In this document: one piece after another, positions 2,912 through 29,700 of the stretch
How the letters are laid out: each line of letters opens with the position of its first letter
Position numbering within the stretch: position 1 is the stretch's first letter
Origin: Baffinella frigidus
Taxonomy: Eukaryota > Cryptophyceae > Cryptomonadales > Baffinellaceae
Direction of reading: 5' to 3'
Assembly (NCBI GenBank): GCA_026770585.1
Contig: MU647769.1
Coordinates: 30,300 to 61,072 of the forward strand
Length of the DNA stretch: 30,773 bases
Position numbers and translations under genes: made by a program
The notes under the pieces: model-generated
The model's input: only the letters and a program-made list of their open reading frames with translations
Databases searched by the model: none
Told to the model about the DNA's origin: nothing

Positions 2912-3046
2912 GCTAGTTGACTTAGCTTAAATCTTGTGGGCCGCATCCCACTAGCCCTTGGAAGTGGATCAAATAATGCTCTTGAACAATTTCGATTTAC
3001 CTTGACATCGGGATCGCAAGGTAAAATCGAAGACCTTCCAGGGCAC

Positions 3047-3167
3047 TACAGGGGTACCTCGCTCATAAGAAACCGTCCCCCCCTAGGACCCTACAGTAAG
3101 GCGATGCCTAGGGCCCTACGGTGTTCCTGGGGGGGGGGCGGTTTCTTATGAGCGAGTTACCCCTGTA
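3047..3167. mobile_element. Family-1 MITE, copy 1
   Basis: Terminal inverted repeats begin TACAGGGGTACCTCGCTCAT and run about 26 bases, then a polyC/polyG-containing interior with CCTAGGACC motifs. TA at both ends is compatible with a Tc1/mariner-type TA target. At 121 bp it has no coding capacity. Confidence 0.9.
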
Positions 3168-4956: not shown

Positions 4957-5077
4957 TACAGGGGTACCTCGCTCATAAGAAAGCGCCCCCCCCTAGGACC
5001 CTACAGTAGGGCTATGCCTAGGGCCCTATGGTTGTCCTTGAGGGCGGGAGTCTTCTTATGAGCGAGGTACCCATGTA
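4957..5077. mobile_element. Family-1 MITE, copy 3
   Basis: The full-length copy starts 10 bases after the zinc-finger stop codon. It may contribute the 3' untranslated region or end of that transcript. Confidence 0.88.
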
Positions 5078-5214
5078 CAGCAAGGGCGCGCACCCTGTCA
5101 GGGTGTCGCGGGGGGGAAGGGCAACGGTGGCTGCTAAGGGGGTGGGCATCGGAGGAACCCCGGTGCAACCTTCGTGACGTAACCCCCCGGATCCCGGCGG
5201 TATTCGGAACTCCG

Positions 5215-5336
5215 TACAGGGGTACCTCGCTCATAAGAAACGCTCACCCCCCTAGGACCACCATAGGGCTCTAGGCATAGGCCTCCTGTAGGGTCCTAGG
5301 GGGCACGGGGTTTCTTATGAGCGAGGTACCCCTGTA
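5215..5336. mobile_element. Family-1 MITE, copy 4
   Basis: Full-length, 122 bp, with near-perfect terminal inverted repeats; TA at both ends. Confidence 0.88.
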
Positions 5337-6376: not shown

Positions 6377-7164
6377 TCAGTGCCTCCTGAGAGGGTCACG
6401 AACTTGGTCGAGGAACTCAGTGGCAGCAGTGTTGCCGGCGGCGCTCCGGTGGCCCGCCCCGCCGATGGTCGCACCGCACTCGGGACAGACGGAGGTCTCC
6501 GTGGCACCGCCGCAGTCTCCGATGAGGTCTGCGAACACAGGGGGGCGGGGGGGGTGAGGCTAGCGTCAAACCTGGATGCTGTCAGCACACAATCTGTAAG
6601 AAGCACACAATCTGTAACAGCACACAATATGTGCAGATTCGGACTACCTCGGTGATTACAGGGTCATCTGCAGGGGGCGGGAGGGGGGTTTGATGGAAAT
6701 AAACCCGGTCAAAATGAACTAGAGCACAGGGTACACGAGGGGGCACGGGTTGGGGACTTACAGGGATGGCCGTTGGGGCATGTGTACCAGTGATTTCCCA
6801 TTCCCGCCTGATGATGAGGGGTCTGGGTTCAGATTCGAGGTGTTCCAGAGGGTTCGCGCATGGGGGGTCTTGTGCTGGAATCGAAGACAGGGCCGAAGGT
6901 GTGAGGTGCGAAACGCGGGACAGGGACATTGGGGTTCTCGAGAGCTGATTCATCGCGCACAGGGAAAGCACAAATCAGGGAGGAGGCCTGCTCGGGTCTG
7001 GTCTGCTTGAATGTGGGCCACACCCTGCCGCTGTTCTCGCCGAGCAAAGCTTCACTAGCGATGACTGCATTGTAGACTTCTGTCTTCTCTTCGATCGTCA
7101 GCGCCCCGCCCTGCTCCACACGGACTTCTTCGCGCAAGAGCTCTTCATCGAGAGTAGCGAGCTC
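6377..7164 (-). CDS. ZNFX1: ZNFX1 exons 54-56: C-terminal RZ-type zinc finger
   Basis: Exons: 7024-7164, 6762-6807 (46 nt), 6377-6528. Exon 54 carries LDEELLREEVRVEQGG and TIEEKTEVYNAVIAS, matching the segment before the finger in human ZNFX1. Exon 55 encodes NHWYTCPNGHP, and a codon split over intron 55 gives Tyr. Exon 56 continues LIGDCGGATETSVCPECGAT and IGGAGH. This is the RZ finger pattern H-W-x2-C-x2-G-H-x-Y-x-I-G-D-C-G-G-x6-C-P-x-C, the same as in ZNFX1 and RNF213, where it takes part in RNA/ubiquitin-related functions. All metal ligands are present. The protein ends about 25 residues later (DQVRDPLRRH, then TGA). Confidence 0.95.
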
Positions 7165-10100
7165 CTGCGTCACGAACCATGGCGTCAGCCTCATCTCTCT
7201 GCCCAATCATGCTTGCTACTCGCCCGCCCTGGAGCCTGCCGCCTTCACAGCCCCCTCCCCTCAACTCTGCAGACTCTCAGCTCTTCACCCCCCCCCCCCC
7301 TAAAACCGAGGAACGTAACCTCCCTAAACAATTACCCACCCTGTCTCACCGCCGGAGAAAGGCTTCCCGTCGCGTCCGACACGCCCTCCTGCTTCAACAT
7401 CGTGCTGCGGAGCTGTTCGCGCGATGCAGCGATCAACTCCAGCTGCTTGCTCTTGATCGTTCCCTGCAAATTTCAGTGCAATGCGGTGATTACGCGGGGC
7501 AGGAAAAAGGTGAGTTCACGTAAAAGGCTCGATTAATACTGTGTAGCCTCAATTCACACGCGCGGTCTTCGAATCAGCACCCTGATCACACGTCTTACAT
7601 ACATACATCTTGTTATCTCAACGTTAACTGGTGACACAGCGGACAGCCAGTACGTATTCGCCCAAGTGTCAGAAAAATCTCCCTTTCTCTCTCGGTTTCA
7701 TCCGGGAACATGTTTATTTTTTTAAAAATGGCCTATCAAACCGGATTGTGGCCCTAATTAAATTCACTTAGGGCCATAATTAAGCTTCGTCCGACTGCTA
7801 TGAACAAATAGGGAATTATTTTGATTTAAATTAAACATGTCCCCGGATTAGGTTGTTTCACCTGCTCCTCGGAAGTCGCCTTGTTCGCAGCGAGGGAGAG
7901 GCAGCGGACGCGCTGCAGGTAGAACCGCTGCGCCACGCGCTGGATGGCCCATTCGCGCGAGAAGTCTGCCGCCTGTCGGGAGCTGAATCACAGGCTGCGG
8001 GGAACGGGGTTCGGAAACGGGATTCGACTCGGGGTGCGGGTTTGGTGATTCGAGATGCAGCGGTGAAGTGTAGGGTCACATCAAGTTGTGTAAAGTCCTC
8101 TCTCCAGATCCACCTAAAAACTAGTCTATGTAGGAGGACAGGCGTGACGGCTGTGTTGGGATCAATCGAGGTCTCACGTTCCGGTCCGCCTAAAATTCGC
8201 AGGATTGAGCACCTGCGCAGCGCGAGACAGGGCGAGGGATCCCTCGCGTCGGCGGGCTTCCTCGAGGTGACGCGTTCCACGAGCCCACTCCTCTCCGTCG
8301 TCGAGCGCCTTGACGCTTGCCGAGCCTGGGGTTCGGGGGTAGGGCGTTGAGCAGCAGCAGGAGGTGAGGCGCGAGCGATCGGGATGGTGAAGGAGCGCTG
8401 GTTGGCGTCCAATGGGAACTGGGCCGAGGGCGGGCGACTGGGGTGTTGTTTGACTGATTCAGGTACGATTGATCAATACGCATAACATCGATCAAATCAG
8501 CTCAGACCCCCACTACCAAACCCGCCTATTCATGTTCGGGCGGGGGGGGGCGGAGTGTGGACTTGCCTCGAAGTTTCATCCCCACGCGGTCCGTCTCACA
8601 CATGTCCAGGAGCACCTGCAGCGTCCACGGGAAGAGGTTTCAGAGAGTTTGGTGGCGGTGAATGACGCTGATACCGATGCACTCGTTTCTGAACCTCGCA
8701 AGCAGAACTGCTTGCTCTCAGACGCCCGGCAGCTCGTGGCTGGGAATTGATGTGCGCCATGAGCCCCTGGGTTCAGTTTCTCAGCGTTGAACCATTTTCG
8801 GGGGGAGAATACAACGCAAAATACACAGCTGGGGAGATACAAAGCACGAACGCTGGGAGGGTGTGAGGGGGGGGGTAGAGAGAAGGGTGTGCGTTCGGGC
8901 CTGAATAACGACGCACTCGGAGTCGCCGAGGGTCTTGGTCATGGTCAGGGTGCGCAGGCTGCCCTGGAGTGCTTCCAGCTCCCGTAGCATCCGTTCCAGC
9001 TCCCTGGGATAGAGAGAGTTTTTTATTGACAACAGACCCGGATTCACTGCATCACTGCTCAGTACCGCTGTATGTGTCGGTCGCTGCGAGCAGCCCCCCC
9101 TCCGACTGCTGACTAAACCTGCGGAGTTTTTATCGGGATGGTATCTAAAAAGACAGAAAGTGTACAAGGAAAAACTGTGATTAGTCAGCAGCTGTGGATT
9201 TTACTCCCTACGCGTCGGCGTGGAGCAACTGTGGGTCATGTGAGGGAGACCGTTGTTCAGATGGCGCACAAGGGACGCTGCGTCGATGGAGAGTGGAATG
9301 AGGATATCTCGAGTGCGACGTGCGTGCCAGCGATCCAGTCAGTGCACCCCAACTGCTTCAATTGCTCCACAGGTTTCAATTGATTACCCGAGCATGGACG
9401 CGATCTTTCCCTCCGTTGGTCTTCCTTTCTTGGTCGCCCACTGCCCTCGCCGGAGCCCGCACTCCAGCAGCTGAACATTCACCAGGAGAAGCTTCGCCAG
9501 CGAGCTCTCCTGGGGACAGGGAGAGTTCTTTATCGGCGACCAAAAGAGCGGGATCGAATATATCGCTGTTCAATACCGATATTCAGAATTGAGCTAAACA
9601 TTGAGCTTAACATTGCACCTATCACTGCTCACCGCCTCACTTTCCTCGAATATTTATGAGAGTACCCTGCGGGAGGTTTCTTGCACGGGTCCCCTCGTAG
9701 AAGACGGGAGTCGCGTGTGTGTTCCAGGTTCATGCAAGCATCGAACCATCATATACGAAACACCGCAGCAACGAAACACCAGGATCACGCGAGCAAAGAA
9801 ACACCGTCGGTATTCGCGCACAGCGTGGTCAGCTGGCAGATTTTGAAACAGGACGCTAACGAAACCGGGTAAGCTTACTACAATAAACATCTCGAATTCG
9901 TCAAAGGTCGGGGGATCTTTCTTGACCTCAATGCCGGGCCGGGGGATCTCGATCGGCTCGTCAGGAGCTCGCCCCTCGCGCAAGGCAGCTGCCTTGGACG
10001 CCTGGTAGATCTTGTGGAGCGGCTGCGGCACCTTGCAGGTTTTTCTGAGCTCCTTGGCGATGTTGAGCACTGCGGATCGGTTGGGGACCTTGTTGGCGGC

Positions 10101-13100
10101 CTCTGCGCGGTAGTTCTCCTCCTGTGGTGAGGTGCTTGTTGCGATGAGTGGTCGAGGTTCACCTAGGTTGGCGAGAAAGTGTGCAAAAAGTGTATCATGT
10201 GGTGTATTGTGATAGAGTGTGTACGCCGGACCACCTTTTGATGTTCACATCTTTGTCTGTTTTGACGAATTCAATTCGAGTGAATAGTGTGAGGTGAGGC
10301 TCAAATAATCGAGAATTCTCGAGGACTTTTTGTTCGCGGGGCAAGCTTCCGCGCTTCTGGTTTAGGCGCAAGACACAGTTTTGTTGAGAACCATTTTCGT
10401 CTAAGTTTCTTTCGCCGTTACCAGTTCAACAACGTCATCTCCCTCTCGGGCACTAGGGAGGCACCAGCTCTGCGAGGCGCAGCCTCATCTGCTTCTTGTA
10501 CTTGAGCGTCATGGTGCTGAGGAGCCCAACGTTGGTCACGCGCATGTAGCGTTGCACGCCGATGATAGGCTCGCGGCAGTCCGGGCAGCCTTTGACTCCG
10601 CTGGTTCCAGCTTGCTGCTCGAGGGGGGCGAAAATATTCAGGCTGGTTTCCCAAACTTAGACTCAAGCTTGAGCACTGAAAGCGTTGCAGCGTAAAATAC
10701 ATGCCGCAATCGGGGCAGAGGGGCCGTCAACATCGAGATTACTCCTCCTTGGTGGGGTGTAGGTATTCGGGTTTTCCAGAGAAAGGGTCAGGAACAGATG
10801 AGAGTGAGAAATATCAAGTGGGGTTTATTTCTCAGGCACACATTCGTGAGACAAAAATTTAGGCGCGAGTCACTTTCTTGGAGACATTTGTGGTTCTGGT
10901 GATCTTCAAAGTCCCACATATTTAGGATTATACCACAAGCGGCTCCAAAAAAATGGATGACAACTAGCAGACTTTTGCAATTACGTGATGGAGCGCGCGT
11001 GGCGTGTGGAACGCCTCGTCTGTCTCGTGGTAGAATTCGCCCATCTCGCACTGGCCATCGAGACTCTCGACCTGTTCCAGAGGGTTGAACAATGTTGGAT
11101 CGAGACACTCACAGATTGTGGATCCAGGCACTCACAGCGGTGCTGAGTAGTGATGGGTTCGGGTCGAATGGTTGTCAATAAAGACACTGCTCTCTCTCTC
11201 TCTGACCCACACTGGCAGGTTATGAGGCGCGGAGAGTGAACTGAAACCGAGAATAACACGAAGGAACGCCGATTCTGCCAGAGCAACTAGCGAGGGGGAA
11301 CCCCCCCCTCCGGGTAGATTCGCTGACGGACGGTACAGCGGAAACGTAAAATAATTTGCCCGAGAGTCAGTCAAACACTCTCTCTGTGCAAGAGAAATTC
11401 CATTCGGTTTCGGTTGTTGCTCTTTGCACCATTGAGACAGTCCAGTGGAGCAGCGCTGTTGATGAAGGGTGCGGGACCACTCAATCGGATTATTGAATCT
11501 CCAAGAGCTCTCCAGTTACCGTGTAGACGTGCTTGCACCCTGGGAGCATGATCAGCGGCCCGTCCGCGTCAACGTCGTGGTCTCCAAGCGTCGACAAGTT
11601 GATCAGGTCAACGCGATGGTTCTGCGCAGAAACAATGCGTTACAGTTCCGGAATCCGTCCTCTCACGAACATGACATTGTCCTCTTTGTGGCCCGACTTC
11701 CCACAGCACTGCCACCAATCAAATCAAATCAAAGTGATGGCAGTCCGGGTCTCAGTCCGACAGAGGCACACTGCACCCACCCCCCACCCGCGAGAGACCT
11801 TGTTCTTCTCGGTTGCGCACGCTGGGCAGGCGATCTCCGGCGGAGGGCACGTTTCGCCGCAGAGCGAAGGGCACTGGTGCCCGCAGGAAAGCTTCTTGGA
11901 GCAGCGCAGATTGCAGAGGGCGCGATCGCACGGGGCGCCTGCCACAGAGCAACAATGTGCTTAGATGCGTTGGGGATTTTAGGTTTACCTTGATTGTTGA
12001 AGCTCCAATTTTGATCCAAATGCACACGCGGGTAGGGTGCCTGCCGCGGATGAACCATGGGCTTAGGTGTGTTCTCTCTCTGATCGTTGATGCTCCAAGT
12101 GCTCCAGTTTCACACACGGTTGAAATGGGAGGTGCAGAGTTGAGGATGCAGGGAGGAAGTGGACGTGCAGGTCCCGGGATGCGGGCATCCCTTTTTGGAG
12201 TCCCCCGTACGACTGTTGACTGATTTCAGGATTAGTACGACGGTTGACTGATTTCAGGACTGATTTCAGGATCAAACCTCCTCGGAGTAGACGGGTCTCG
12301 CAGTTCCAAAGGCGTTGAACTCTCTTCCCTAGCAGGCAGCACTGGATTTGGGTTCAAGGTTTGGGGGTTGGGGTTGCGTGCTCAATGTTTAGGGTTGAGG
12401 GTAAAGGGGGGGGGGGGTACCGCACGGCATGGAGCACTCCCCGTGCGGGCATTTGCACACGCAGGCCTCAATGCACGGCGCACACACCTGTCCCCACGGG
12501 TCCATCACACATTCATCGCGGTTCTTCAACCCTGCCATCCACCAGTCTGGTGCACTGACGCGGTGCTTCAACCCTTAGTTTTGTTTGCAGGAGAAAAACC
12601 ACGCACTTGGCGGGGGGTCCGACCTCGTCACACTTGCCCGGACACTTTGAATGGGCGCACTTGGACACACATGCCTTCTGGCACCCGCCACAGGGTGCGC
12701 CCGCGCCGGAGTGGCAACTCTCCACGCACAAGTGCCCGCAGAGAAAGACCTTCCCGCACCGCTTCTCGCATTCGAGGTGTCTGAAGCCGTCGTCGAGGGT
12801 CTCGGTCTCTTGAAAGGTGCATCTGCGCAAGGTGAGGCGCTCAGAGGGTTATGCATCGTGGGTCTGAGTTGTGCGGTGCGAAACGGGAGCTCTGGAATGG
12901 CAATGGTAACGCGTGCAGGTACGGTGAAGGTTATGAGTACACGTACGAGGCCTATTTCGTTGCTCCAACATCTTCCCTCTGGCGTCTAGAGTAGGAGACA
13001 CGGAGGGAACATCACCCTGGATCGGTGAAGAGAAAGAAAGCGATACATGGGTACCTCGCAATCCAAAACATTCCGGTAACGATCGATGAGCATAGGCGTG

Positions 13101-14696
13101 CCTCCAATGTAAGAACACGTCCCCCCCTAAGCACCACCCTAGGGTCCTAGGTATCTATAGGCCTACAGTAGGTTGCGAGTTCTGAAAATCGAGGTGCCTC
13201 TGTACCTGCCGCAGCTTCCTCGGCACTCGTGCCCGCACGAGAGGCTCATCCCACAGGCCTCTTGGCAGGCTCTCCGACACTTGGTGTCGTTCTGGCGCAG
13301 TTCTGTAGCCTCGTTGCACGCCACCTTCCATCGCCCCACCACCGTTAACTGAAGACTCGTGCCCAAAGCAATTACTTGCGCCCGGTTTGTACACGAACGG
13401 TAACTATCCGGGCCGAAAGTGCACCACATGATCCTGAAATTAGTCAACAGTCGCAGTCGTGTGGGGGACTCCCGCACCTTGAGGAGATGCCCGCATCCCG
13501 GGACCCGCACGTCCACTTGCTCCCTGCACTCGACGCTCGTGGGATCGCGCGCCCGGAAGCACGCAACGTTCTTCGCTTTGTGTCCGCACGGGAGGTCGAC
13601 CGACGTGATCTTCACAACGCACGTCCCGCACGGCTCCCAGCACAGCTTCGGGCACGCGTGCTCGCACCCATCCCGGAGCCTCGGGCAATCCTCGCGGCAT
13701 CGCGACGCACCGTGCGCCGGGTCGTCCGGGTGGCAGCGCCGCGGGCACGCGTGGCCGCACCCCAGCCGGAACGCGCAGTTTCTGTTGCACCCGCCGTCTG
13801 CAGCCACCTCCGCGAAGTCGCTCGGCTCCTTCACGAAGATGACGTCGTCGGGGTGGCTCTGGCACCGGAGGGGGAACGCGGGGCCAACGCGCCCAGCGGT
13901 GCTGAGCGTGTTGATGACTTCGGGCCACATCTTGGAATTGGAGCTCTTGGTCAAGGAGGGGATGTGGCCGATGAGGTACAGGCCTGCGATGGAGATTTGG
14001 GGTGAGGGGTTCTAAGGGGTGGGTGTTGGGATCCGGGCCAAGCGTTGAGGGGTCAGGAGTTTTGTCGTTTAGAGTGTGGTGAAGGTGGTGCCGTGTGTGA
14101 GTTAACGTGAGTACACAAAAAGAAGAGAAAGATATAGGGAGAGGGAGAGGGAGAGGGAGAGGGAGAGGGAGAGACAGCCAGCCAGCCAGACGTGCATACA
14201 AGGGTGAAGGTGGTTCCGTGTGTGAGTTGACGTTGGTACACACAAAGAAAAGAGAGAGAGAGAGAGGGAGAGAGAGAGAGAGAGGGAGAGGGAGAGAGAG
14301 AGGGAGATGAATAGGGAGAGACAGCCAGACATACATCCATACAGCCATACAGACAGACAGACAGACAGCGATAAAAGAGACCGAGGGAGATAGNNNNNNN
14401 NNNNNNNNNNNNNNNNNNNNNNNNNNNNNNNNNNNNNNNNNNNNNNNNNNNNNNNNNNNNNNNNNNNNNNNNNNNNNNNNNNNNNNNNNNNNNNNNNNNN
14501 NNNNNNNNNNNNNNNNNNNNNNNNNNNNNNNNNNNNNNNNNNNNNNNNNNNNNNNNNNNNNNNNNNNNNNNNNNNNNNNNNNNNNNNNNNNNNNNNNNNN
14601 NNNNNNNNNNNNNNNNNNNNNNNNNNNNNNNNNNNNNNNNNNNNNNNNNNNNNNNNNNNNNNNNNNNNACAGAGAGAGAGAGAGAGAGAGAGAAAC

Positions 14697-14727
<31 letters not shown>

Positions 14728-17700
14728 GTGTACCGTGCTGCGCGCGCGAAAGGAGGACATTAATGCGGTTCGTGGTCATGAGGAACCCGATCTTGCCTTC
14801 GTTATTGTTCCGCACGAGCGAGATGATGACCACCTTGCAGGACAAATCTGGAGTTCATCTCTCCAGATGCAGGGTGCTGAACGCAGTGAAGCGGATGCAG
14901 GAGGGTCACCTTCGGACCCAGCACCACATTAGGAGGAGCGTCCAGCAACGATCCTACCCCTCGCAACCCATCAGAGAGGGCAGATGCAACCCATCAGCGA
15001 GGGCAATAGTTAAGAAACCAGATCTGGTTGTTAGGTTCGGGGAGCGGAATAAAAACATTAAGGAGAACTGCGTGGCGGGGTGTGCACATCAACTGGAGCT
15101 GTGATAATCAGAAACAACACACCAACACAACACATCAAAACTGGCTCAGCTGGTTTGAAAACCGTGGGCTCTCTCCTCTCTCCTCTCTCCTCTCTCCTCT
15201 CTCCTCTCTGGTGGCGTCACGCACCTTGGATTCCTCCCCCTGGAAGTTATCGATCGTCGCCAACCGAATCCTCTTCGACATAGGCGCCCTCACCTCCTGC
15301 ATGGACGCACACCGCACACTCGTTATCCTTCAACCATTTCAGAGCAACATTCGGCCAGGGGATGAAAGCGAGCGCGGAGACAACAGCTATCTCACCTGCG
15401 GCCCATTCCCGGCACCCCCCCGTGCTGTGTCTCCACCCTGCGTCCACGCAGTAGACCCCCCCGCGCCCACTCCATCTGGTGAAGAAGTGTCCTCGGGTTG
15501 ACCCTCGATTCGTTCCTCCAGGTTCAGCCCCTCGATTCCCTCCTCCAGGTCGCAAAGCTCTTCCGCATCACGGTCGTCGAGCACCACCTGGCGCGGTTGG
15601 AGAAAGATTACCCCCGTGTCCTCGGATTACCCCCGTGATTACCCCCGTGTCCTCGACACTGCGCGTTCTGGCTGGGCCACGCGTGTTGGGCAGGGGGGGG
15701 GAAGTTTACATTGTTCATAACTTTGCGGAGAAGGAGTGATAATTGTGCACCACTTCTGGGGACTAGAAGGCATGTCGTGGTGTCTGGATAAAGTTGCGCC
15801 AGACGATCCAAAGTGCGCGCCAAGTTGTTCAAAGTTGCATCGAAAGATGCGTCAACAAGCGTCCAAAAGAGTCGAGGTTTCGTCCAAGCTTCGTTCGCCG
15901 CCATCAATTCAAAAAACTCGTATCTATCCCAGCGTCTACCGTTAACATACGTGCAGCGGCGAGCTTGCGGAGCAGGGTGAGCTGGCCATTGTACGGCGTG
16001 AGGATGGTGATCTCACTGGCGGCATACCTGCACGTGCGCCCACACCCATAGGGTCACGACAGAGGTGTTACAGAGAGCCGATACAAGCAGCGCAGCCATC
16101 ATCAACGGCACCGGTTTGTTCGGGACAGTATGCTCACTCTCACCCGTCAAGTTTCGACAGCTGCAACAACTCCAACAGCTCACAAAGCTGCCAAACCGTT
16201 CCTGGGGCGTACCCTTGGTGAATCAGGTGAGCGGCGAGAGCGAGGGACATGTCCGCTTCGAACGCGTTGGATTTGGACTTGGAATCCCCGCCATCATCTC
16301 CGCCTGCCTCCTTGTGGTCGTGGTCCATGAAGAACAGGTTGTGCGCCATCTGTTGACCACGGAGAACACACCGCAGAGTTTTTGTCAAAATCGCGATTCT
16401 GACCAACGGAACTACGCAACGAGACAGCTCATGGCAACCAAACAGAACTTAGTTAAAGATTGAAGTTTGGAAATCGGCTCGAATCGTCAACCCGAAGCTC
16501 TCAAAGAGTCCCACGACTGTTGACTTAAGGTCAAGCTGCGAGTCCAACGATGGTGGACTAAATCGAGCAGTTCCTGGCACATAATCTCTCTGGTTTCTTG
16601 ATCGTCCTGGTACAAAACCAGTCCTTTTAGGTCAACAGTCGTGGGACTCTCTAAGAGCTTCGGTTTCAGAGCTAAGAAACGCTTAACCAGACGGACTTTA
16701 CCTGGAACACCTCTGATCAGTCAGCAGTTGTACGGGGGACTCTTGCTTGTCGCGCGCAAGTCAGGGTATTATTTACCAGGTAGGTTGTACCACAATCTCT
16801 TAATAGCCGGCTGTTATAGAGCAGTTTTTGCTTTTGTTGGCCACACAAACAATCAAACAATGACACTAGCTTCTCGAATTCGTACCAGCATACTCAGCTT
16901 TTGCGATGCTTTCATTCTTTTCCGTGGCCAACAGATGCAAAAACCGCTCCACCTCTTTGATTCGAGTTTCTGCTGAAAATAACTTCAAAACTATCAAAAC
17001 GTACCCCTTTCACGTCAGGATACGCCGTCGAGGGATGGTCGAGGAGCGTCGGGTAGATGGGGCGGATCAGCTCTGCGATCTCGGAGCGCATGCGCCGTTG
17101 CATTTCCAAAGTCACCTGCCGCAAAAGTTGAGTATGCTGGTACGAATTCGACAACCGTTTGGCATTGTTCGATTGTTTGATTGTTTGTGTGGCCAACAGA
17201 CGCAAAAACTGCTATATATCAGCCGGCTATTTAGAGATTGTGGTACAACCTGAACCCCCGCACGGTCCAGGTCTCTTTAGTTTTTCGCGTGGATGACTTG
17301 GACACGGGGGCGCTGAGGAAGAGACTGTGGCGACGTGCGAATCGGGCGCGTCCTCGTTTCAGATTTTTCTCTCGAGGCTGAAAGGGATGAATTTTTGCGT
17401 TCGATGTGCGGTTCAGTCCATGGATGGGCAAGGGAGACCAATCAGAAAATCATAAGATTGCTTATTCACTTGCATTTGGTATCAAATACGGTAGGTTCTG
17501 ATAGGGCTCCGCCGAAGAGACGCGGTTACAAACCGAGGGTAAGAGGCGGGGAGAAGGAGCGACCTCAGGGTTTATTCAATGGGAGGTTGATCCAATGTGA
17601 GGCATCCAATGTAAAGTTCCGACCAGGAATGGGCGACCTTTGGAAAGTTGTGGGGCGGCGCGCGGCGCACAAGGCGCTCGAAAAGTGAGATGTCGAGGTC

Positions 17701-20700
17701 GAAGCCCTTGCGGGATTCGACCGCGAGGGTGTACATTTGCGGCTTCGGTCGCAGCTGCTCGTGGTCCCCTGCCGAGGCAACACCTTCGTGTCACGATTCG
17801 AACACCAAGGCAACACCTTTGTGTCGCGATTGCCAAGGCAACACCTTCGTGTCATGGTTCGAACACCTGCGTCTCCCTGACAGACACGCAAACCAGTTTT
17901 GTCAGAAAAGACAACTGTTTGTCTTTTCTCTGTCGAGAGACGGATCTAAGGGATCTTGCAGCGTCGACGAAATTAGAAGCGATACAATGCATTCATGCAT
18001 ATTGGACCTGGTGCTAAACTGCTCCGAGGCCGCCAACCCAACCTGACTCCGACCTGGGTTTCTTTCGCCGTCACCAGTGCAACATCGTGGTGTTGGAGGT
18101 GGAGTTAGAATCCATCCGGAAAATGCTCGAATGAGCGGCCGACACGGGGTACAGTCATGGCACAAGGCGTAGCATGTGCGACACTGACGCTGACTGTTTG
18201 GCAATAAATTATCAATCTCTGGTGTTGGAGGCCACCGATGAGGATGAGGTGCGCGGTGCTCTCCATAAGGATCGCGAGGATGTGTGCCTCCAGCACCTCC
18301 GCCGCCTCCTCCACCACGATCACTTTGGGGGCCAGCGCCTTGATGACACTGCGTGGGAGTTTCAATGACCGTGGGGCGATTCAGGGTGCAGCTGCCACCC
18401 TTGGTGACGGGGTCCCGGGTTAGACTCATCAACTAGATCCACCCTCAGGGCGCTGCAGTCACACTGGGTGGTGAAATCTGGGCAAACTTGCAGATGGACC
18501 GTTCGGACGTTTTCCAGAACACAACACTGCGCGAAAGCTGCATGCCAATCCCATTCTTACGGTAAAACCTCGTAAACCAACCCATAAATTGCCACACACA
18601 AAGAGAAGTCACTAACAACCCGAGTCTCATGGGTACCTCTGGAGGCTTGCAGCGCCCGTGGTGGTGATGCCAATGACGGAGGCGCCCCCCAAGATCCGGA
18701 CGTCTGTCGCATACCTGGCACACTGCAGATCCTTGATAGGACCTTGGGGAGAGGGTGGTTGACGTTTCAGACTTTCGCAGTCGTTTAGTGGCAGAGGGTG
18801 ATTTCCCCGGCGCGGTGGATTCCATGAATAGAGACTAGAGCATAATACTTGCAGCTGAGGCTACAGCATCATTCTTTCCGGTCTGGGCGAACCTTCGATC
18901 CTGTCCTGCACGTCCGTGAATTCCTCAGCGAGGGCCTCCTTGGAGACGTTGAAGATGAAGTCTTTCACGCGCCGGCGCTCGATCCGCGACAAGGCGAACG
19001 CCTCCATGTCCAGCACTGTCTCCAACTGGCAAACCGTTCAATTGTCAGATTGCCGGGGGAGTCGATTGGCGCTGATTTTGTTGCCTTGCACTGGTTTCGT
19101 TTCGCGCACACCATTTCACGGAAGTCTTCTCTCTCGTTGCCAAATCGTGTGTTTGATCTTTCGGAGAGTGGAGTGCGTCAGAGAACGGGAATGACTCCCA
19201 AACATTGCAGCCCAGCTCGCAGGCACGGGAGGAAACACGGTTGCACTCTGGACCCGAAATGGCTCTCGAGAGTCACCAAGTGAGCAGCACTTCCGAACGC
19301 AAAAACACGCCTCGGGAGAAGCTTATTTACCGGGCGGTCCGTTTCGTGCAAGGGAGCCAGAAGTCCGGCCTTGACCTCGCTTCGTACCATCACCAGCGAC
19401 CCATCCTGTCGGACACGCGTGATCAGGGTTGCCTCAGCATGCGCCGTCCAGAAGACAATGATTGGGCGCCCAGCAGCTGAAAGAATGAGTGTGTGCCTAA
19501 ACGTTGATTCAAACCTACCTGGGTCTCGAGACGTAGTACGGTGAGCGTCCCCTTGGATGCCGCGCCGTCTCTGAGGACTGCACAGTGCTGCGCACGACCC
19601 CAACCAGAGTCAGATCGAACAATTCCGGAACACGGTTGAGTTGAGGTGCGAGATTGTCTCACGCCATCGATCTGATCAGACATAGTGCTGGCTAGTCGCA
19701 GAGATAACACGCACCCCGGGATCAGAGAGGGTCTCCCAGGCAGCTTATGGACCGCTTCAAACAATCTTAAGCGTCGTTTCAGACCGGACAACATGAGATA
19801 ACCAGCTCACATCGCGGGTGGGCAGTAGAGAGCGTCGATGCGCACCTGACCAGCAGCGCGAACATCCTCGTCTGAGAACGCGATGTCTTGCAGCGCGACC
19901 CTGGCGTGAATGCCGAGCTTCGGCGAGTAAGACGCTTTCACCTGTCGTCCGCACGCGCGGATTTCAGCGTCGTGGGCAACATATCCACCGCCTCACAACA
20001 TCAACCAACGGGCGGCTGGGGCGTACTCACTCACCGTGGGAGTTTTGATGGTCCTCGTAAGCGTCACGCCATCGCACGGAGGTTTGCTTCTCAGTGCCTG
20101 TGCGGAACCAGAGTCAGGATGGCATATTGCTCGAGACTGGTGTTTTAAGATAAAAAATTCGAAGGTTTGAGTGGAAAAGTGATGGCTGCAGCAATTAATT
20201 GGTACAGCAATCAAATGGTGCAGCAATTTATGGTGTGGTTGAGCACCAGCAGGAATGGTGCAGCAATTTGATAGGAGATGGAGTTAGAATCCATCCGGGA
20301 AATGCTCGTATGAGCGGCCGACACGGGTTACATTAGTGGCACAATGCGTAGCATGTGCGGCGCTGACGCTGGTTGTTTGGCAATAAATCATCAATTTCTC
20401 TCTGCAGAAATTTATGGTTTGGTTGAGCACCAGCAGCACGTCTTCGAAGCCGAGCATCTCCAGATCATCGAGGGTGAAGGGAACTGGCGTGTCTGCCACC
20501 ATAGGAACAGTAAGACAGCGGGAATATGAGAGAGAGAGAGAGAGAGAGAGGGGGGGAGAGAGAGAAAGAGAGAGAGACGTATCGAGACGGGGAGAAGTGG
20601 AGAGAGGGGGGGCGAAGGAAAGACGGTGAGTGAAGATAATCAGTGCGGAGGGGGGGGTCGGATCTGGAGGACAGAGCAGTGACAGCCGTTGCCCATCCTG

Positions 20701-23700
20701 ATTGTATTTCAGCAGTCACAAGATGCAGGGAGGTCTCGGTGGTTTCCAGGATTTGATTGAAGTTTGAGGAAAGCAAGTTGGCCACCGTGGAATGCAGGGG
20801 GGGGGGGGTGCGAGACATTGGTGCGAATTGTTTGAGGAACAACAGCGATTCTCGATCTTCGTTACCACTCAAAAAAATCTTTCCAAGCAGGCATCGTTGC
20901 TAAGTCGTATCGGTGGAGACCTTGCGCTGCGGTTGCCCGGAATGCTGCAGCGAAGTCGTCGCCTGTCGCGCCGCCACGCTCGACCTGCGGCTCAACCGTT
21001 TCCCATCGCTTTGCTCAGTGGAAATAGCTTGTCCCAGGAAGCAGACGTTCAACAGATGTATATAATATATTTTACTACATCCTGTATACATTTCAGGGTG
21101 TGTACCGGAGCGGGTTTAGGTGTGTACGGAGGGTTGAGGGTTTAGGGTTTAGAGTTTAGGATTTAGGGTTTAGGGTTTAGGGTTGAGGGTTGAGGGTTGA
21201 GGGTTTAGGGTTTAGGTTTTAGGTTGAGGGTTTCGGATTTAGGGTTCATGGTTGAGGGTTTAGGGTGTTGGGTTTAGGGTTTGGGGTCTAGGGTTTAGGG
21301 TTTAGGGTTTAGGGTTTAGGGTTTAGGGTTTAGGGGTTAGTGTTGAGTGTTTAGTGTTTAGGGTTTAGGGTTTAGGGTTTACGGTTTAGGGTTGAGGGTT
21401 TAGGGTTTAGGGTTTAGGGTTTAGGGTTTAGGGTTTAGGGTTTAGGGTTTAGGGTTGATCTGTTCACCCTGATCATGGAAATTCCAACCGTATTTGGGCT
21501 GATAAACGGAACGAAAACTTCTGGGTGCCCAAAAGACGCAGTGAGCTGTGCCAATGCAATATTGCAGAAGTTGACGATACGGTATCGTCAATACCGGTAC
21601 CCAAACGTCAACGTGTGCGTGGTTCAATTATGGATGGCAATCACAACGGGAAAACTCGCCACCTGGAAGACAGCGGCGAGCTGCTGCGCCAGAGAGAAGA
21701 GGCGCGTCCGGCGCACCTCGAAATCGACCTCCACGTCCTCCTCTTCCGAGTCGTTGTAGTCAACCGACGAAAGGACTCTGTTTTGCATCCTGCATCCATC
21801 CGCAGCAGTGCTCACACATACACAACTCCGAACCAGGAATCGGTTCTCATTCAAGCAAGAAGCTGGGGAACTGCTTTGATTTTCAAATAGATAGAGTGTC
21901 CCCGCTGTTGTTGGCCTAAGTGAGGCTTGAAGGGCACACCTCGTCTGCATTCTCCCTCCTTTCTGTGTTTTCCTTGCTCTGGAGTCCTCTTCTGCCTGCC
22001 ACCACCCTCAAAAGCTCAAAACCGAAAAAATCGATGGCACGATCCCTGGTGTGGAGTTTCGGCTACCGGCAGCCAGATCTTTGCTGACTCGTTTCCGCCC
22101 TAGCCTTCAACCCACTGACACGAAAAAAAGCAATTCTGGGACGAGTGGGGTGCGCCTTCGGAGCTCCGGTCTGGTGTGAACGGCAAAGGGGATAGGAGCA
22201 CGAGTCGTGATCCGGACCATGCGTCCAGTTTTTGTACGCGAACCCGCTCGACACGTGCTTGAACAGGGACTCCCAGAACACCTGCGGTGTTCTCTGCAAT
22301 TAGGATTGGAGGGCACACGAAAAGAGAACATCCCGCCAGAAATCATTGCACTCCAGCAACTAACTGAATCCAAAACAAACTTCCACTTTTCGAGCAAGAG
22401 TGCCCACGGGCGGAGGGCTGAGACCCCGCTGGTCTGGGAGAATCTCTCCCGAATGTTTGTGAAGCTGACTTTCTTGCTGCAGAGCGCCTTGCTGAGACCC
22501 TCCACCTGCTCCAGGGTGGGAGCTCAGGGCTCAGCAATCATCAAGTAGGAGTGATACAAAGCTTTGGGATGCGTCAGCTGGCCTTTGCACATTTCACAGG
22601 TGGGAGCCCCAAATACGGGTCTGCGATGCCACACAATTGCATTTGCTTCTGCGCGTTGGGTTCTAGGATCCCGGATTTCTTGTATCGGGGGCTGTGTACA
22701 CCACCAACCTTTTTCTCGTATTGCTCCACGCGTTGACGATGCCCGCAGTTGAGCGATCTCTCGGAGGGAGTCTCGGAATTTCTGCGCCACATCGTTCCGT
22801 TTCTCAGCTCTCCCGGTACGGCATTTAGAAGAGCGCGCCTAGTCTCCGAACAGGCGGGAAGCTACAGGGCAGGAAACCGAACCCTCGGCCATCCACGCAA
22901 GAGTGCCTCGACTGCTTGGCAGAACTTGCACTTCGGGGGTACACGACAGGATTCATTGCCGGGGTCCAACTTAGGTTCCAGTGTTGACGTCTGGTGTGGA
23001 GACCTGGTGATGTTCCAGAGGTTGACGGCAGCAAGCTTCTCGCTCTTCGACCTGGAGATAGGGGACCCCTCCACCATCAGCGGCGAGCAGAAGATGCAGC
23101 GGCCACGTGAATTCGGTTTCGGTGTTCCGTTCTTGGGTACGGGCCCGGTTCAGGTCTTGGGTGTGGGGAGTTTTTTTCTTCGCCAGAGCAACAGAATATT
23201 CTCTCTCGGGTATCGGGTGGGGTGGAACCCTCCGCCCACTCGAACAACATTCTTGATCCCTGTCAGGGCTCGTGTTTCAGATTTCGAGGAACCAGGCAGC
23301 TGGGGTTCTTGCCGCAGAGTGAAAGATGTGCATATGCAAGAAGATCCTGTAAATATGAAAACTTGATCTGGCTCAGTAAAGTTTCAAACAACGAGTTGTT
23401 GTTGGAAAAGGAAAAAGATTCTTGCCAAGGCAAGAATCTTCAAAATTAATCGTGCTGAAGTAAAACGCACCCCCGCTGCACAAGTGCGCACAGTTCTCTG
23501 TCCACCACGGACCAGATCCGATCAACTCGAGCCGTTTCAACACCGAGCAGCTGGAGCAATTGGAGCTTCAGTGATGAGGGCGAACCCCGAGGAGGCTTCG
23601 ACTCACGCCTTCTCAAAAAGCACTCAACACGTAGGGAGGGTACCGCCGGTTTTGACTGACGCACTTTCCGCTCACGAGGCAGGTGGGGTATCACGCACTG

Positions 23701-26700
23701 ACGGTCGGGGCAAGAGGGGCGCGCGTGATCGCGGTCGAGCCGGAGAACAACGAGCACCTGCGTCGATGAGGCTTTCCAGGAGCTGGTCGAGAGCGTGGTT
23801 CGTGAAGCACATCACCACGATCGGCCCAACGTCAAGTCCCCGTCCCCCCCTCTCCACAAGTGCCGCTACAGCCGCACCCCCCTCCCCGTTCACCCCCCCG
23901 TCTCCGACCCTCCTAGGTTCTCCGAAGCGGGGCCTTAGGCGCAGACCCGCGCGGCCAGCAGGCTTCCTGATGCGTGCGAGGGATGGTTTCGCGGTCGGGT
24001 GCTCGGCTTGCGGGTTGGGGGCAAGTCGGGGTACGGTCAAGTGTTTTTGGAACCATGTCGGGAACCAGGGTGTGTGTCTCAGGCTTGAAGCTGCGCTGCA
24101 TACCTTGCCTCACGGCTGACCGCTCAATCCTTGCAACGAAGTTTGGAGATCAAAGAGTTGGTCTTGGCGAGTTTCAAGATACCTGGCATTCTTCACGAGG
24201 GTTGCGACGATTTTGGTACCCACATAGGACTTGCCAGTCCCAGGCGGTCCCTGGATCAACGCAACCTCCTGTTTCGAGGACGTGAGTGAGTGAGCATGTC
24301 AGCTTTCGAGGAAATGGGATCGGGTGCCAGATTTTCAGCGCTGGAGAAACGCAAAGAATAGAACAGAGGGTCCGGGTTCCAGGCACTAAGAAGAGATTAT
24401 CAGCTGACGGATGAGACAGTCCCCCGGGGCGATTAGGAAAGTACGACCTCTTAGGAAAACTGATATATGTCAGGGCTCGTTTAGCAGACGGTATGGACTA
24501 CGGTGGGTCTTAGGTCTCCTTAGAAGAGAGGCTGTGCTAGGGACCCTGGGACCTACAGAAGTCAAACTCGTATGCTAAATGACCCTGGAATCGAATAGAG
24601 CCCTGGCTAGACACAGCACCTGGGTAACTGCAGCGACGAAGGCGTTGAGCTGCGCGGGGTCCAGAACCGAGTGGTCCCGCAAAAACTGCCACGCCTCTTC
24701 TCTCTCATCATCCTGTCAGAGGGGCCAGCTTCAGCACGAGTTAGAGACTTCTCTCGAGGAAAGGGGGTTAGGTGCCAGTTTTCCAGCGCTGGAGAAACGC
24801 AAAGATGTTCAGAATAGAACGGAGGGTCCGGGGTCCAGGTACCAAGAAGTGGGGTTTACGGTTTTGGAATTTCTGCTAGGGGTTCGGGTTCGGACATTGC
24901 GCATGAGCACTTGCTTGACGGGGGAGCAGTCCACGCCTGCATCACATTGGAGAACACGGTTCAGCGGAAGGTGCCTTTGGGGATGGCAACGAAACATGGT
25001 TCTAACTTATGTCAACTTCCGACACTATCAAAGCTGGAAACCCGGCCAAGGGTCACAGGTGCAGCGATCCAGGGCGAACACCCGCGATTTTCGTAGGGTC
25101 GAGCAGATGGGTGAAGTCCATAGTCGAGGTCTCCTCGATGTAGGAAGGAAGTTCCATCTCGGTCCCCTCGAACGTGTCCGGGGCGAGGTACTTCTCCATG
25201 AGGCGGCAGGTCTCGGATTTGGTCTGCAGCGCCTCGAGTACCTGGACCAACCATGGTGACTTTACTGACAAGATATAAAACCACCGCTGCATCATTTAGA
25301 CTCGGCATGCAAAGACGAAGAGGACTGTGTTGAATGAAGGGATTTCTCTGCAGCGCCTCGAGAACCTGGGAAAACGCATGGTTTGTACCAGGACGGAAAC
25401 CAACACTCTTAACAAGCGAGTACTGACGACTCGAGCCCCTCGCCAGTCTCGCCGGGGCTATCACGATTAACCCTTCCTAGGAAGCTTTAGACCAGGAGAA
25501 GTGCTGTTGAATCGACTTTTCGGGAGTCTCGAAGACAGCATGCAACTTTGCTTGCGCTGCGGCCTCACGTGTGGAGAGCACGTGGCCTCGCTCTGGCTCC
25601 TGCTCAAACCAAGCCTTCGTGGGGGGGAATGCATGGTGGCCATGTTGGTATCAAAGAAGGTATCTCAAAACACCACCGAAGCAGGAGATGAACCCCATTG
25701 ACCCAGTCGAACCACAACTCAATGATAAGTGACCCATCGCAAAGGTTGTGTCTCAGATACGGGGGGGCGGGGGGGGGGCTCGGAGTTCCGGGTGCAAGGT
25801 GCGGGGTATTGGGCTGGGGGTTGCGTCTCGGGCGCACGTAGGAGGTGGAGTCAGAATCCATCCGGAAAATGCTCATATGAGCGGCCGACACGGGGTACAG
25901 TAGTGACACAATGCGTAGCATGTGTGGCGCTGACGCTGGTTGTTTGGCAACAAATTATCAATCTCTCTCGGGCGCACCGGCTTGTAGGAGAAGAATGAAT
26001 CGCACGTCTGCAGGATGACAGCGCGCGCCGAGATCCTGAAGTGGATTCGGGTATCAGCCACTTCCCCCAACGTAGAACTGGCTCCATGGGATCGGCTCCT
26101 GGGTATCGGGCGGGTTGCCATCTTCGGAGCTCGGGAGCCCTCCACGCTTCCAAGAGCGATAGAGCGTTCGGGACTCAATCGCAAACGATCGGGTGTATCT
26201 CGGAGTTGAAATGGGTCTAGGATTCCTGATCATTTTGGAAATCTGGCGCCGATGCGGATCTTGCTCTAGGGGTGGTTCAAAACATTCCAGCACGGTTCCC
26301 ACTCATCTTGGAGATCTACTTCACGGGCAAAGATGCGATGTGGTTGGGGTCTAGGATTCCTAATTATTTTGGAAATCGTTGGGTTGGGGTTGAGACTCCG
26401 GATCGAGGAGGCCTTCGAAAAGCTGCTTGCGGTTCTCCGGCGATACGTCGCAGACCAGCCCCACACGCGGCCTGACAGCACACGCCAGACTCCCCAGTGA
26501 GTTGTCAGCTTTGGCGTAGGAGGTGCAGTTGGAATCCATCCGGAAAATGCTCCTATGAGCGGCCGACACGGAGTACAGTAGTGGCACAATGCATAGCATG
26601 TGCGGGGCTGACGCTGGTTGTTTGGCAACAAATTATCAATCTCTCTTGACAGCTTTGGACGGCATGGGATAAACAAGAGGTTTAGGTCTTCAGGCCATGG

Positions 26701-29700
26701 AATGGCTTTGAGCTTCACAGCGCACGTTTCAGCGCTTACCGGTGCTCGTTGCTTGCCAGTTGCTTCTCATCCCGGACCGCGACTGACGCGAAGATCAACA
26801 CCGGATCGCCCCCAGGAACACTCCACGAGACGCACACCAGCGACCTGACGGCAGAGCATCATTAGCTTCATCGCTGCTCCGCGCTGAGGGGAGCAAGGGT
26901 CTGTGCTGCATTAGGCCGAAACAGCCTTTCCACCGGACGCCTTTCAGCATTTCTGAGTTGACGCGTTTCTATTTTGTTTGAAGTCGCACCCGACTTGTCT
27001 TACATCAGAACCAAACGGGGGGATGGACACAAACAAGCAGACGTTTCATGGAACAGAAGACTCACCCTTTCTGCAAGCGCTTTGTGCTCTTCCAGAAGGC
27101 GAGGCGCTTCGCCTTTCCCATCGTGGCGATTCTGGGAAGGTCGAAGTCCACAGAGTAGACGAGACCCATCTGCCGAGGATCCGGACGTCAATGGGGTCGG
27201 CCCCACACCCAGACCGGCTGGTATTATTGCGAATTGGTGTTCAGCTCCTTCAGAACCAACACCCACCACCGCGAGGCCAGCAGTGGTTGCTTTCACGTGG
27301 TTTCGGTTTTGTCCCGTCTCACCTCTCTGGCTACAGTCTTCGAGGTTCCAACACGCACCGCACGGTTCTCGGGGAGGAGTCAACCTTCTTATCCGAGACG
27401 ATCCGTACCAGCTTCGGCCTGGTGAACGTGAACACAGACTCCCCACTGGATCCGAAGAAAAACTTCCCCTCCCTCATTCCCCCCGCCCCCTGCTCGTGGC
27501 CAGGACCGCGGCGAAACATTTGGCGGAAATTGCTAAGCACCCCAGGCTGTGCAGGGAGGGCGAAAAATTCTGAGCAGGCTTCGCGGAGCGGACGCATGAA
27601 ATCCTCCCTCAGGAGCCTGAAGTTGATGTCGAGGCGACGTGCGGTAGAGCCTTCCGGGAGGTGGTGCACGACTCCTGTCGGGCCAGCAGAAGAATCAAGA
27701 GAGGTTGGAGTTAGTCGGAGGTGGAGTTAGAATCCATCCGGAAAATGCTCGTATGAGTGGCCAACACGGGGTACAGTAGTGGCACAATACGTAGCATGTG
27801 CGGCGCTGACGCTGGTTGTTTGGCAATAAATCATCAATCTCTCTCAAGAGAGGGGGTGATGTTTCTGAGCGCCGTCGAAATCACTCTCAACTCTGCTCAA
27901 ACAACGTCGCGCAAACAGCTGCGGGGTGGGGTGTTGAGACGGTGGGTGGGTAGATGCCTGGGTTGTTGCGGGGGAGGTATGGGGCAGTCGAGAGTGCCTC
28001 GCTGCTCGTCGGAGCCACCTGTGCGCGCGTGAGGGGCGTTAGGTGGTAGCAAGAGGAAGCATTGCCACTGCTATCCGACACGCTGGCGTTTTGGCTGGCC
28101 GTTGTGGCCGCAACGCACAGACAGCCACAACGCACAACACATGACGTCAGAGGAAGCTCCTGGACGTACCTTGATGTCCGCAATGCGCTGGAAGTCATTG
28201 TCGTGACGCATCTCCCCCGTACGGCTCAACTCCCCGGGGCCATCCTGCAAGACAGCTTTGGTGATTCAGGGGCCTCTAGAATCCCCACCCGATGGGGGCT
28301 GAGGCAGTGATGGGTGGAGAGCCCCTGGGCTCGACTCAACAGCTGATCTTTCGGATCACTCAATCTGAAGTAGTCACACGTAGAGGCTGCTTGCACACAA
28401 AGGATACCGATTTCGTGCCAGTATCTTTCACCGACACCACTTCAGTCAAGTCATCTCTCTCAGGGGAAAGGGGTGCGACCTCTTGGTCTGGAAGCAGGCG
28501 CGGCTCGAAGGGCTGCATCGTTTCTTGCCGCTGGTGCTCGACCTCCCGCCGCTGCTCCAACATCTGCCGAGAGAGAGAAGAGGTATTGATATTTTGTTGC
28601 CAAACAACCAGCGTTAGTGCCGCACATGCTACGCATCGTGCCACTACTGTACCCCGTGTCGGCCGCTCATACGAGCATTTTCTGGATGGATTCTGACTCC
28701 ACCTCCTACTCATCTGCCGAGAGAGAGAAAAGACTTTGTTCACTTGTTGACGGGGGGAGAGGAGCTGACACGGAACCGGAAATCAAATGTGCAGTGTCAT
28801 AAATAACCAATTTCCCGCAGAAAATGTGATGTGACCCCCCGCCCCTGCTTCCGGACCTGCTGAGAGAGAGAAAGATTTATTGAACTGGTGTAACTAAAGC
28901 CGCCACCTGTTCAATAAAGTTGGCGAAACAAACTGAAACGAAACCGGAACTCGATAAGCAGTATCATGAATAACCAACCACCCGAATAACTTTGGGGGCC
29001 TTTGGATCTGCCGGTTCAAGAGCCTCTGCACTGGAGAGCTGAATGCGACCCGAAAGCACAAAACGCTTTTTCTGCAGATCTTTTCTACGGAAAGACGTAT
29101 CATTGGGCTATGTTGGGCAAAATTAAAACCTCAAGGACCTAACGGACTTCCGTCGGAGGAAGGTGCGAAATCGGAGGGCCCAACAGGTGCCGGACCCCCC
29201 CCCCCCCCCAACAAGTCAAAAACCCAACAGCAGTTGGGTTGGACCTGGCGCCTGTCTTCCTCCGCGACAGTGCCTCTGAGGTAGCGGAGCGCCTTGTTTA
29301 AGTTGCCGCGCGCCCCCACCTGCATCGCAGCCACCAACCCTCACGGTGAGACCAAATCAACGAATTGATTGGAGCCATTTTACCCTTGCAGTCCCCCCGT
29401 TTTACCTTTGCAGTCCCCCTCATTGGGGGGTCTGTCCTACACAATACAATCTTAAAAGTCCCATTCGCCCACAAATGGGAGTTTTAAACTGCTTTGCACA
29501 AAAGGTCAAAAATCGTGGATTTAGTCCCTCCGTGAGGGTGAGTGGAGAGACCGCCACGAATGAAAGGGTTTGATGCGGACTCCGACCTCTGTTGACTAAT
29601 CCGAGTTTTTTCGCTGCGAACTCTGGTCTAGTCATCCTGGGGCACCTGCCCGTTTTAGTCAACAGTCGAAGGAGTCTCTCATCGCACAGTGGGTAAGCCC

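Follow-up and report, generated by a model that had tools for sequence, protein, structure and literature searches.

A short interspersed element (SINE)-like sequence of 131–132 nt was found six times in the introns of one ZNFX1-like helicase gene of the cryptophyte Baffinella frigidus, within a 30,773 nt stretch of contig MU647769.1 (assembly GCA_026770585.1, positions 30,300–61,072; the whole stretch is called the window). Among copies sampled across the genome, those of its older subfamily in antisense orientation occurred at 3′ splice sites (acceptors) far more often than windows from the same flanks. We somewhat favor the reading that older antisense copies are kept as portable 3′ splice regions, an arrangement that would arise by retention and not by intron creation of the introner type. 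A genome search with the element, as suggested by a first-pass annotation of the window, showed a genome-wide family with 1,033 young and 362 older pattern matches at ≤3 mismatches; genome-wide counts here and below cover the 382 Mb assembly of 1,364 contigs. The young subfamily (28 copies) had a mean identity of 99.6% to its own consensus and carried an extra A, and the older subfamily (77 copies, those of the window included) had a mean identity of 94.8% to its own consensus. "Young" was defined by ≥97.5% identity in some tests (33 copies) and by the extra A in others (28 copies).

Older antisense copies are enriched at acceptors

Element copies at sampled loci outside the window, designated by L-numbers (L009, L064 and so on), were assayed for adjacent exons using a codon model trained on exon pieces of the helicase gene. 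Checked on its own training pieces, the model recovered 24 of 31, and it also called some plus-strand pieces of the window. In the acceptor test, a YAG in the first 16 nt past the element (plus 2 nt of the element end) had to be followed by a coding run, and background windows were taken from the same flanks. An acceptor was found at 9 of 71 older antisense copies compared with 11 of 836 background windows (1.3%), an about ten-fold excess (p=5.6e-6); the counts for older sense, young antisense and young sense copies were 2/71, 0/28 and 1/28, respectively. At thresholds of 7, 9 and 10, respectively 10, 7 and 7 of the 71 copies scored (p=2e-5 to 5e-5). The 71 older copies comprised 55 from the pattern list, with eight positives, and 16 from BLAST-picked loci, with one positive (L009).

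Except for L009, all nine automated cases were also read by eye in their gene context. By eye, one arrangement recurred in exon-adjacent older copies, with the antisense element followed by the exon as ...GGATTCTAACTCCACCTCCTAC-nn-CAG^exon, and the branch-point-like motif in the antisense end, TTCTAACTCCACCTCCTAC, lay 15–24 nt before the AG in all nine acceptor copies. The acceptor AG was inside the duplicated target in L064, L067, L079, L081 and L100, and also in the sense copies L087, L031 and window copy F. The same layout was found in L082, L092 and L120, with a duplication of 5 nt in L082 and L120 and none detected by the program in L092. A Pfam scan of ten flanking peptides identified the L087 exon as WD40 (above the cut-off), the L081 exon as pirin (E=3e-5, just below it) and a DnaJ piece at the young copy L041 (E=0.0003, below the cut-off), where the duplication begins a little way into the exon; the SAM match at L122 was doubtful, and six of the ten peptides had no match. 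The exons at L067, L079 and L092 had no Pfam match, and those at L064, L082 and L120 were called by the codon model only. Weak matches were obtained to inositol monophosphatase at L100 (E=0.3) and to 17-beta-HSD at the donor-side copy L094 (E=0.03).

Independently of the exon model, intact antisense ends were followed by N{0,4}CAG in 72 of 531 cases genome-wide, 1.9 times the expected 7.16% (p=1.8e-7), compared with 40 of 531 for a GAC control (6.1% expected, p=0.11; CAG versus GAC, p=0.002). Spacers of 0, 1, 2, 3 and 4 nt accounted for 24, 6, 10, 18 and 14 of the 72, respectively. In a subset of 100 listed ends, in which "young" denotes the exact young core, spacers of 1–4 nt leaned to non-young ends (7, all with spacers of 2–4 nt, versus 3 young).

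Plain distance-to-exon counts did not stand out from those for random points within the helicase gene. An exon lay ≤20 nt away from 12 of 65 older and 5 of 33 young copies; of the random points, 25% were this close in that gene and 6% in L009–L028. Of 34 copies outside the window whose duplications were clear, four were scored as in an exon and none as outside but within 30 nt of one (controls, 8% and 4%). A first, strict acceptor test reached no more than p=0.04 for older copies, and a broader one (threshold 8) gave 7/66 for older antisense copies versus 1.2%; the donor-side excess was weaker than the acceptor-side excess and threshold-dependent. The first-pass annotation had proposed insertion targeted to, or selected for, exon–intron borders, and the acceptor excess of older antisense copies and the CAG excess speak for a part of this proposal. 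Strict splice-site targeting is wrong, since most sampled copies have no detectable exon nearby: none was called within 190 nt of 50/65 older and 28/33 young copies (coding threshold 11). A spread through intergenic DNA, which the annotation had held to speak against its proposal, was thus largely what was observed.

The element is copied as a SINE-like retroposon

The element starts with GTAGGAGGTGG and ends with ATCAATCTCTCT(CT)n, the tail being of variable length. Target duplications were examined in 75 copies, 67 of full length and eight partial, all with the 3′ end intact. At a score of ≥7, a duplication was present in 44 of the 75, compared with 1.6% of 1,471 shuffled flank pairs, and the duplications were 8–19 nt long with a median of 12 and a mode of 11–13. 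Two of the 44 duplication-bearing copies were partial, and one of these, situated inside a tandem of element pieces, is probably spurious. Among 12 partial copies, one was cut by the locus edge; eight of the remaining 11 kept the 3′ end without the 5′ end, two had the 5′ end only and one had neither. No terminal inverted repeats were found on comparing the element ends GTAGGAGG... and ...ATCAATCTCTCT, and the aligned target sites revealed no splice-like motif, just a weak G|T at the first nick.

Variable duplications, a repeat tail and 3′-anchored partial copies are the signature of target-primed reverse transcription as performed by long interspersed elements (LINEs) and SINEs. Because the duplications are variable, the tail is (CT)n, the partial copies are mostly 3′-anchored and inverted repeats are absent, the element is well supported as a SINE-like non-autonomous retroposon copied by target-primed reverse transcription, in agreement with the earlier preference for retroposition over a cut-and-paste mechanism. 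A cut-and-paste DNA transposon or miniature inverted-repeat transposable element was ruled out by the lack of terminal inverted repeats together with the variable duplications. A partner LINE, which often has the same 3′ tail as its SINE, did not turn up: in the about 3.5 kb covered around each of 15 reverse transcriptase (RT) domains, no tail shared with the element was found, although RT frames lacking an RNase H match in the stretch covered occur at L060–L062.

A small-RNA ancestor and a conserved hairpin, both suggested previously, were not borne out. The element had no Rfam match at the gathering threshold, copy C gave one chance-level match and no tRNA was detected in the window, so that an snRNA, tRNA or 5S ancestry is not supported. 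One B-box-like stretch, GTTAGAATC, is present, and an A box was not seen by eye when the element was read against the A/B-box promoter consensus. The fold of copy C was not notable (z=-1.24), and a functional conserved hairpin was rejected.

At element positions about 62–68, the single base diagnostic of the young subfamily changes GTAGTGG to GTAAGTGG, which on the sense strand resembles a consensus 5′ splice site. Copies of the element cluster, with nine pairs ≤10 kb apart among 100 listed places versus 0.26 expected, a figure that may include local or segmental duplication. Clustered copies occur on contigs C5 (487–492 kb), C158 (474–478 kb), C49, C79 and C30. Two segmental duplicate pairs, L010/L114 and L016/L033, were identified among copies outside the window and were left in the counts.

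Six independent insertions in the helicase gene

The six window copies, A–F, all belong to the older subfamily and share a mean column identity of 87%, which substantiates the initial observation of one element repeated in the helicase introns. Orientation is given relative to the gene, and the distances of the duplications from splice sites were read by eye.

6400..28563 (limits approximate), minus strand: host gene, ZNFX1-like helicase, delimited by homologues (tblastn of 120 homologues) and exon cores
18091..18222, plus strand: copy A, antisense; duplication 18088–18094 (or to 18099) and 18220–18231, 7 nt by the program and up to 12 nt on including the 5 nt common to the element end; begins within the intron, 4 nt from donor 18235
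20270..20401, plus strand: copy B, antisense; duplication 20259–20269 and 20403–20413, 11 nt with 1 mismatch; 17–18 nt from the donor at 20430
25837..25968, plus strand: copy C, antisense; duplication 25826–25837 and 25966–25977, 12 nt, the latter starting exactly at donor 25977 so that its start coincides with the donor GT
26515..26646, plus strand: copy D, antisense; duplication 26502–26514 and 26646–26658, 13 nt with 1 mismatch; about 30 nt from the acceptor near 26471
27713..27844, plus strand: copy E, antisense, with about a dozen additional nt at the 5′ end; duplication 27695–27704 and 27844–27853, 10 nt by eye only (none found by the program, score 0.4); about 20 nt from the acceptor near 27674
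28579..28710, minus strand: copy F, sense; duplication 28561–28579 and 28711–28729, 19 nt, including the acceptor CTCTCTCTCGGCAG^ATG, which in gene orientation reads TTCTCTCTCTCGGCAG^ATG

The annotation had assigned a target duplication to each copy. Those of A, B, C, D and F were recovered by the program and that of E by eye, and the roughly 34 bases assigned to B proved to be a local tandem duplication. Its placement of A, B, C and F within a few bases of, or across, a splice site holds for A, C and F, B being farther away, and its placement of D and E within about 30 bases of an acceptor was correct. The 150 nt flanks of A–F resembled neither one another nor the flanks of other copies (E <= 1e-5), which excludes segmental duplication as the source of the six; A–F are real, independent insertions. 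As the annotation had argued, random insertion into introns would rarely give such proximity: the chance that six random intronic insertions all fall ≤33 nt from a splice site was P=0.0003, and that of at least three of six falling ≤5 nt from one was P=0.014, under a rough model of 24 introns with one assumed length and with the 33 nt and 5 nt thresholds set after seeing the data. In the acceptor test the window copies scored 1/6 in sense and 0/6 in antisense orientation.

The host gene and its surroundings

The helicase gene has an NFX1-type zinc finger and many short exons, which were placed by tblastn with the 120 homologues. Scoring 7,992 candidates against a query of exon pieces chained by hand yielded 245 relatives (E <= 0.001); the top one came from Myrmecia bisecta (31% over 45% of the query). 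Undetermined bases at about 14394–14740 lie inside the gene and appear as X in the translations. The exon preceding the intron of copy E apparently ends, at 27959, in a GC donor and not GT (CCAG^GCATC), as judged from reading-frame continuity. An interstitial telomere-like array (TTTAGGG/TTGAGGG) occupies 21088–21526 within an intron of the gene, and similar CCCTAAA repeats lie downstream of the exon in L031. Another interspersed repeat, encoding ...RGTSLIRN...LGPYS...LMSEVPLY, was found in the window at 2921–3151 and about 5000–5300 and in the flanks of L010, L015, L016, L033 and L037; several element copies lie within or adjoin it. A 76-aa repeat peptide from the window had one named protein match, from Baffinella frigidus (51% over 46% of the peptide), a weak indication that the host is a cryptophyte.

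Proposed retention as portable 3′ splice regions and its alternatives

The antisense strand of the element, with its terminal GGATTCTAACTCCACCTCCTAC, resembles an intron's 3′ end, combining a branch-point-like CTAAC with a pyrimidine-rich stretch. An antisense insertion spanning an existing acceptor would leave the AG doubled by the target duplication, and the element's branch-point-like motif would then stand 15–24 nt before the downstream AG. Correct splicing could therefore continue at that downstream AG, for which use of the element's motif is predicted. Copies at acceptors would thus be tolerated and later kept, copies elsewhere in genes would be lost, and existing introns would be lengthened; no new intron arose in the cases inspected. 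We infer that the acceptor excess comes mainly from such retention and not from a preference at insertion.

Several observations weigh against retention. Exons were called by a codon model trained on a single gene, and a convincing or fair Pfam match was obtained for only 3/10 flanking peptides. The final acceptor test is partly post hoc, because the signal emerged after the older subfamily had been sampled and antisense acceptors had been scored apart. The contrast between older and young antisense copies (9/71 versus 0/28) gave p=0.06, and none of A–F is an antisense copy at an acceptor. A branch-like motif precedes only 13/31 exon starts of the host gene (one of the 13 being copy F), 10 of them at 16–28 nt, and in several acceptor copies the original upstream acceptor still looks strong. 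Among the 100 listed ends, the CAG rate was equal by age (young 8/49, others 7/51), which weakens the case for retention and means that the CAG count does not establish an age contrast. In the same subset a spacer of 0 was a young feature (5 of the 8 young ends with CAG). Genome-wide this spacer accounts for 24 of the 72 CAGs, and these may stem from an additional C at the junction and not from acceptors.

The equal CAG rates would fit a process acting at insertion, in which copies are steered to 3′ splice regions either by the machinery of retroposition or by pairing of the cDNA end (...CCTCCTAC) with acceptor DNA rich in pyrimidines. The AG is tightly positioned beside the element end, copies are clustered, to which segmental duplication may contribute, and the young copy L031 has a duplicated acceptor, all in line with such targeting. 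We nevertheless regard it as less likely than retention, though a serious alternative, given that no young antisense copy was found at an acceptor, that the aligned target sites show nothing splice-like beyond the weak G|T and that most sampled copies have no exon nearby. An ordinary SINE that inserts at random, with purifying selection on exonic copies, short introns and chance in one gene producing the pattern of A–F, seems more improbable still. Most sampled copies do lie away from exons, the initial tests gave values equal or close to background, and chance proximity to splice sites is common in the helicase gene because its element-free introns are short (median about 310 nt). However, random insertion leaves the antisense acceptor excess over same-flank windows and the genome-wide CAG excess unaccounted for, and exon purging alone gives no enrichment of acceptors over the adjacent intron.

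A role as an introner, whereby the element would create new introns on landing in exons, is very hard to credit. According to Gozashti et al. (2022, PMC9860276), several introners gain splice sites from the target duplication, as might be imagined here. In the cases read by eye (window copies A, C and F; L031, L079, L087 and L100), however, the insertion lies in or beside an apparently pre-existing intron, the element is part of a larger intron, and the similarity does not reach both splice boundaries; introner activity was rejected on the grounds that the intron appears older than the insertion and the element makes up only part of it. Retention of older antisense copies could be extended to the tentative and rather doubtful proposal that in many introns the family progressively substitutes its own signals for the pyrimidine tract and branch point of the host, and may thereby be taking over 3′ splice-site recognition without creating introns.

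Comparison with known systems

LINE-mobilised SINEs are short, need no coding capacity, and show variable duplications, a 3′ repeat tail, 3′-anchored partial copies and young and old subfamilies, and the element resembles them in all of these features. Unlike them, it has no A/B-box pair by eye, no tRNA, 5S or 7SL head was found, and its tail is (CT)n. Among the listed results of searches in open-access PMC text, we saw no SINE described as having such an enrichment at acceptors.

Introners are described as common in aquatic protists (PMC9860276), and the element is like them in that target duplication may supply or double splice sites; it differs in making no intron in the cases inspected, in its retroposon hallmarks, in lacking inverted repeats and in having many copies without an exon nearby. 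In the Merle allele of dog PMEL, a SINE in reverse orientation has inserted into an intron–exon boundary, duplicating 15 bp of target sequence at the acceptor (PMC7349775). That insertion shares with the present copies a reverse-oriented SINE at an acceptor with a target duplication, but it is a single allele whose longer tail forces use of a cryptic splice site, whereas here the arrangement is recurrent and the antisense end looks usable as a 3′ splice region. Exonization of antisense Alu (PMC7349775) similarly involves a reverse-oriented SINE with acceptor-like, pyrimidine-rich signals; Alu yields new exons within introns, whereas the excess of the present element sits at existing acceptors. 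In mammals, transposable elements (TEs) are depleted near exons, in so-called hazardous zones, and within 20 bp are biased to donors (PMC3088655). Selection on TEs near splice sites would be common to both situations, but the element shows an excess, mainly at acceptors, in place of the mammalian depletion.

If retention of older antisense copies is correct, retroposons would be able to reshape splicing by providing existing introns with a substitute branch point, unlike introners, which make new introns, or Alu, which gives rise to exons, and the family would bear on how TEs are retained or lost near exons.

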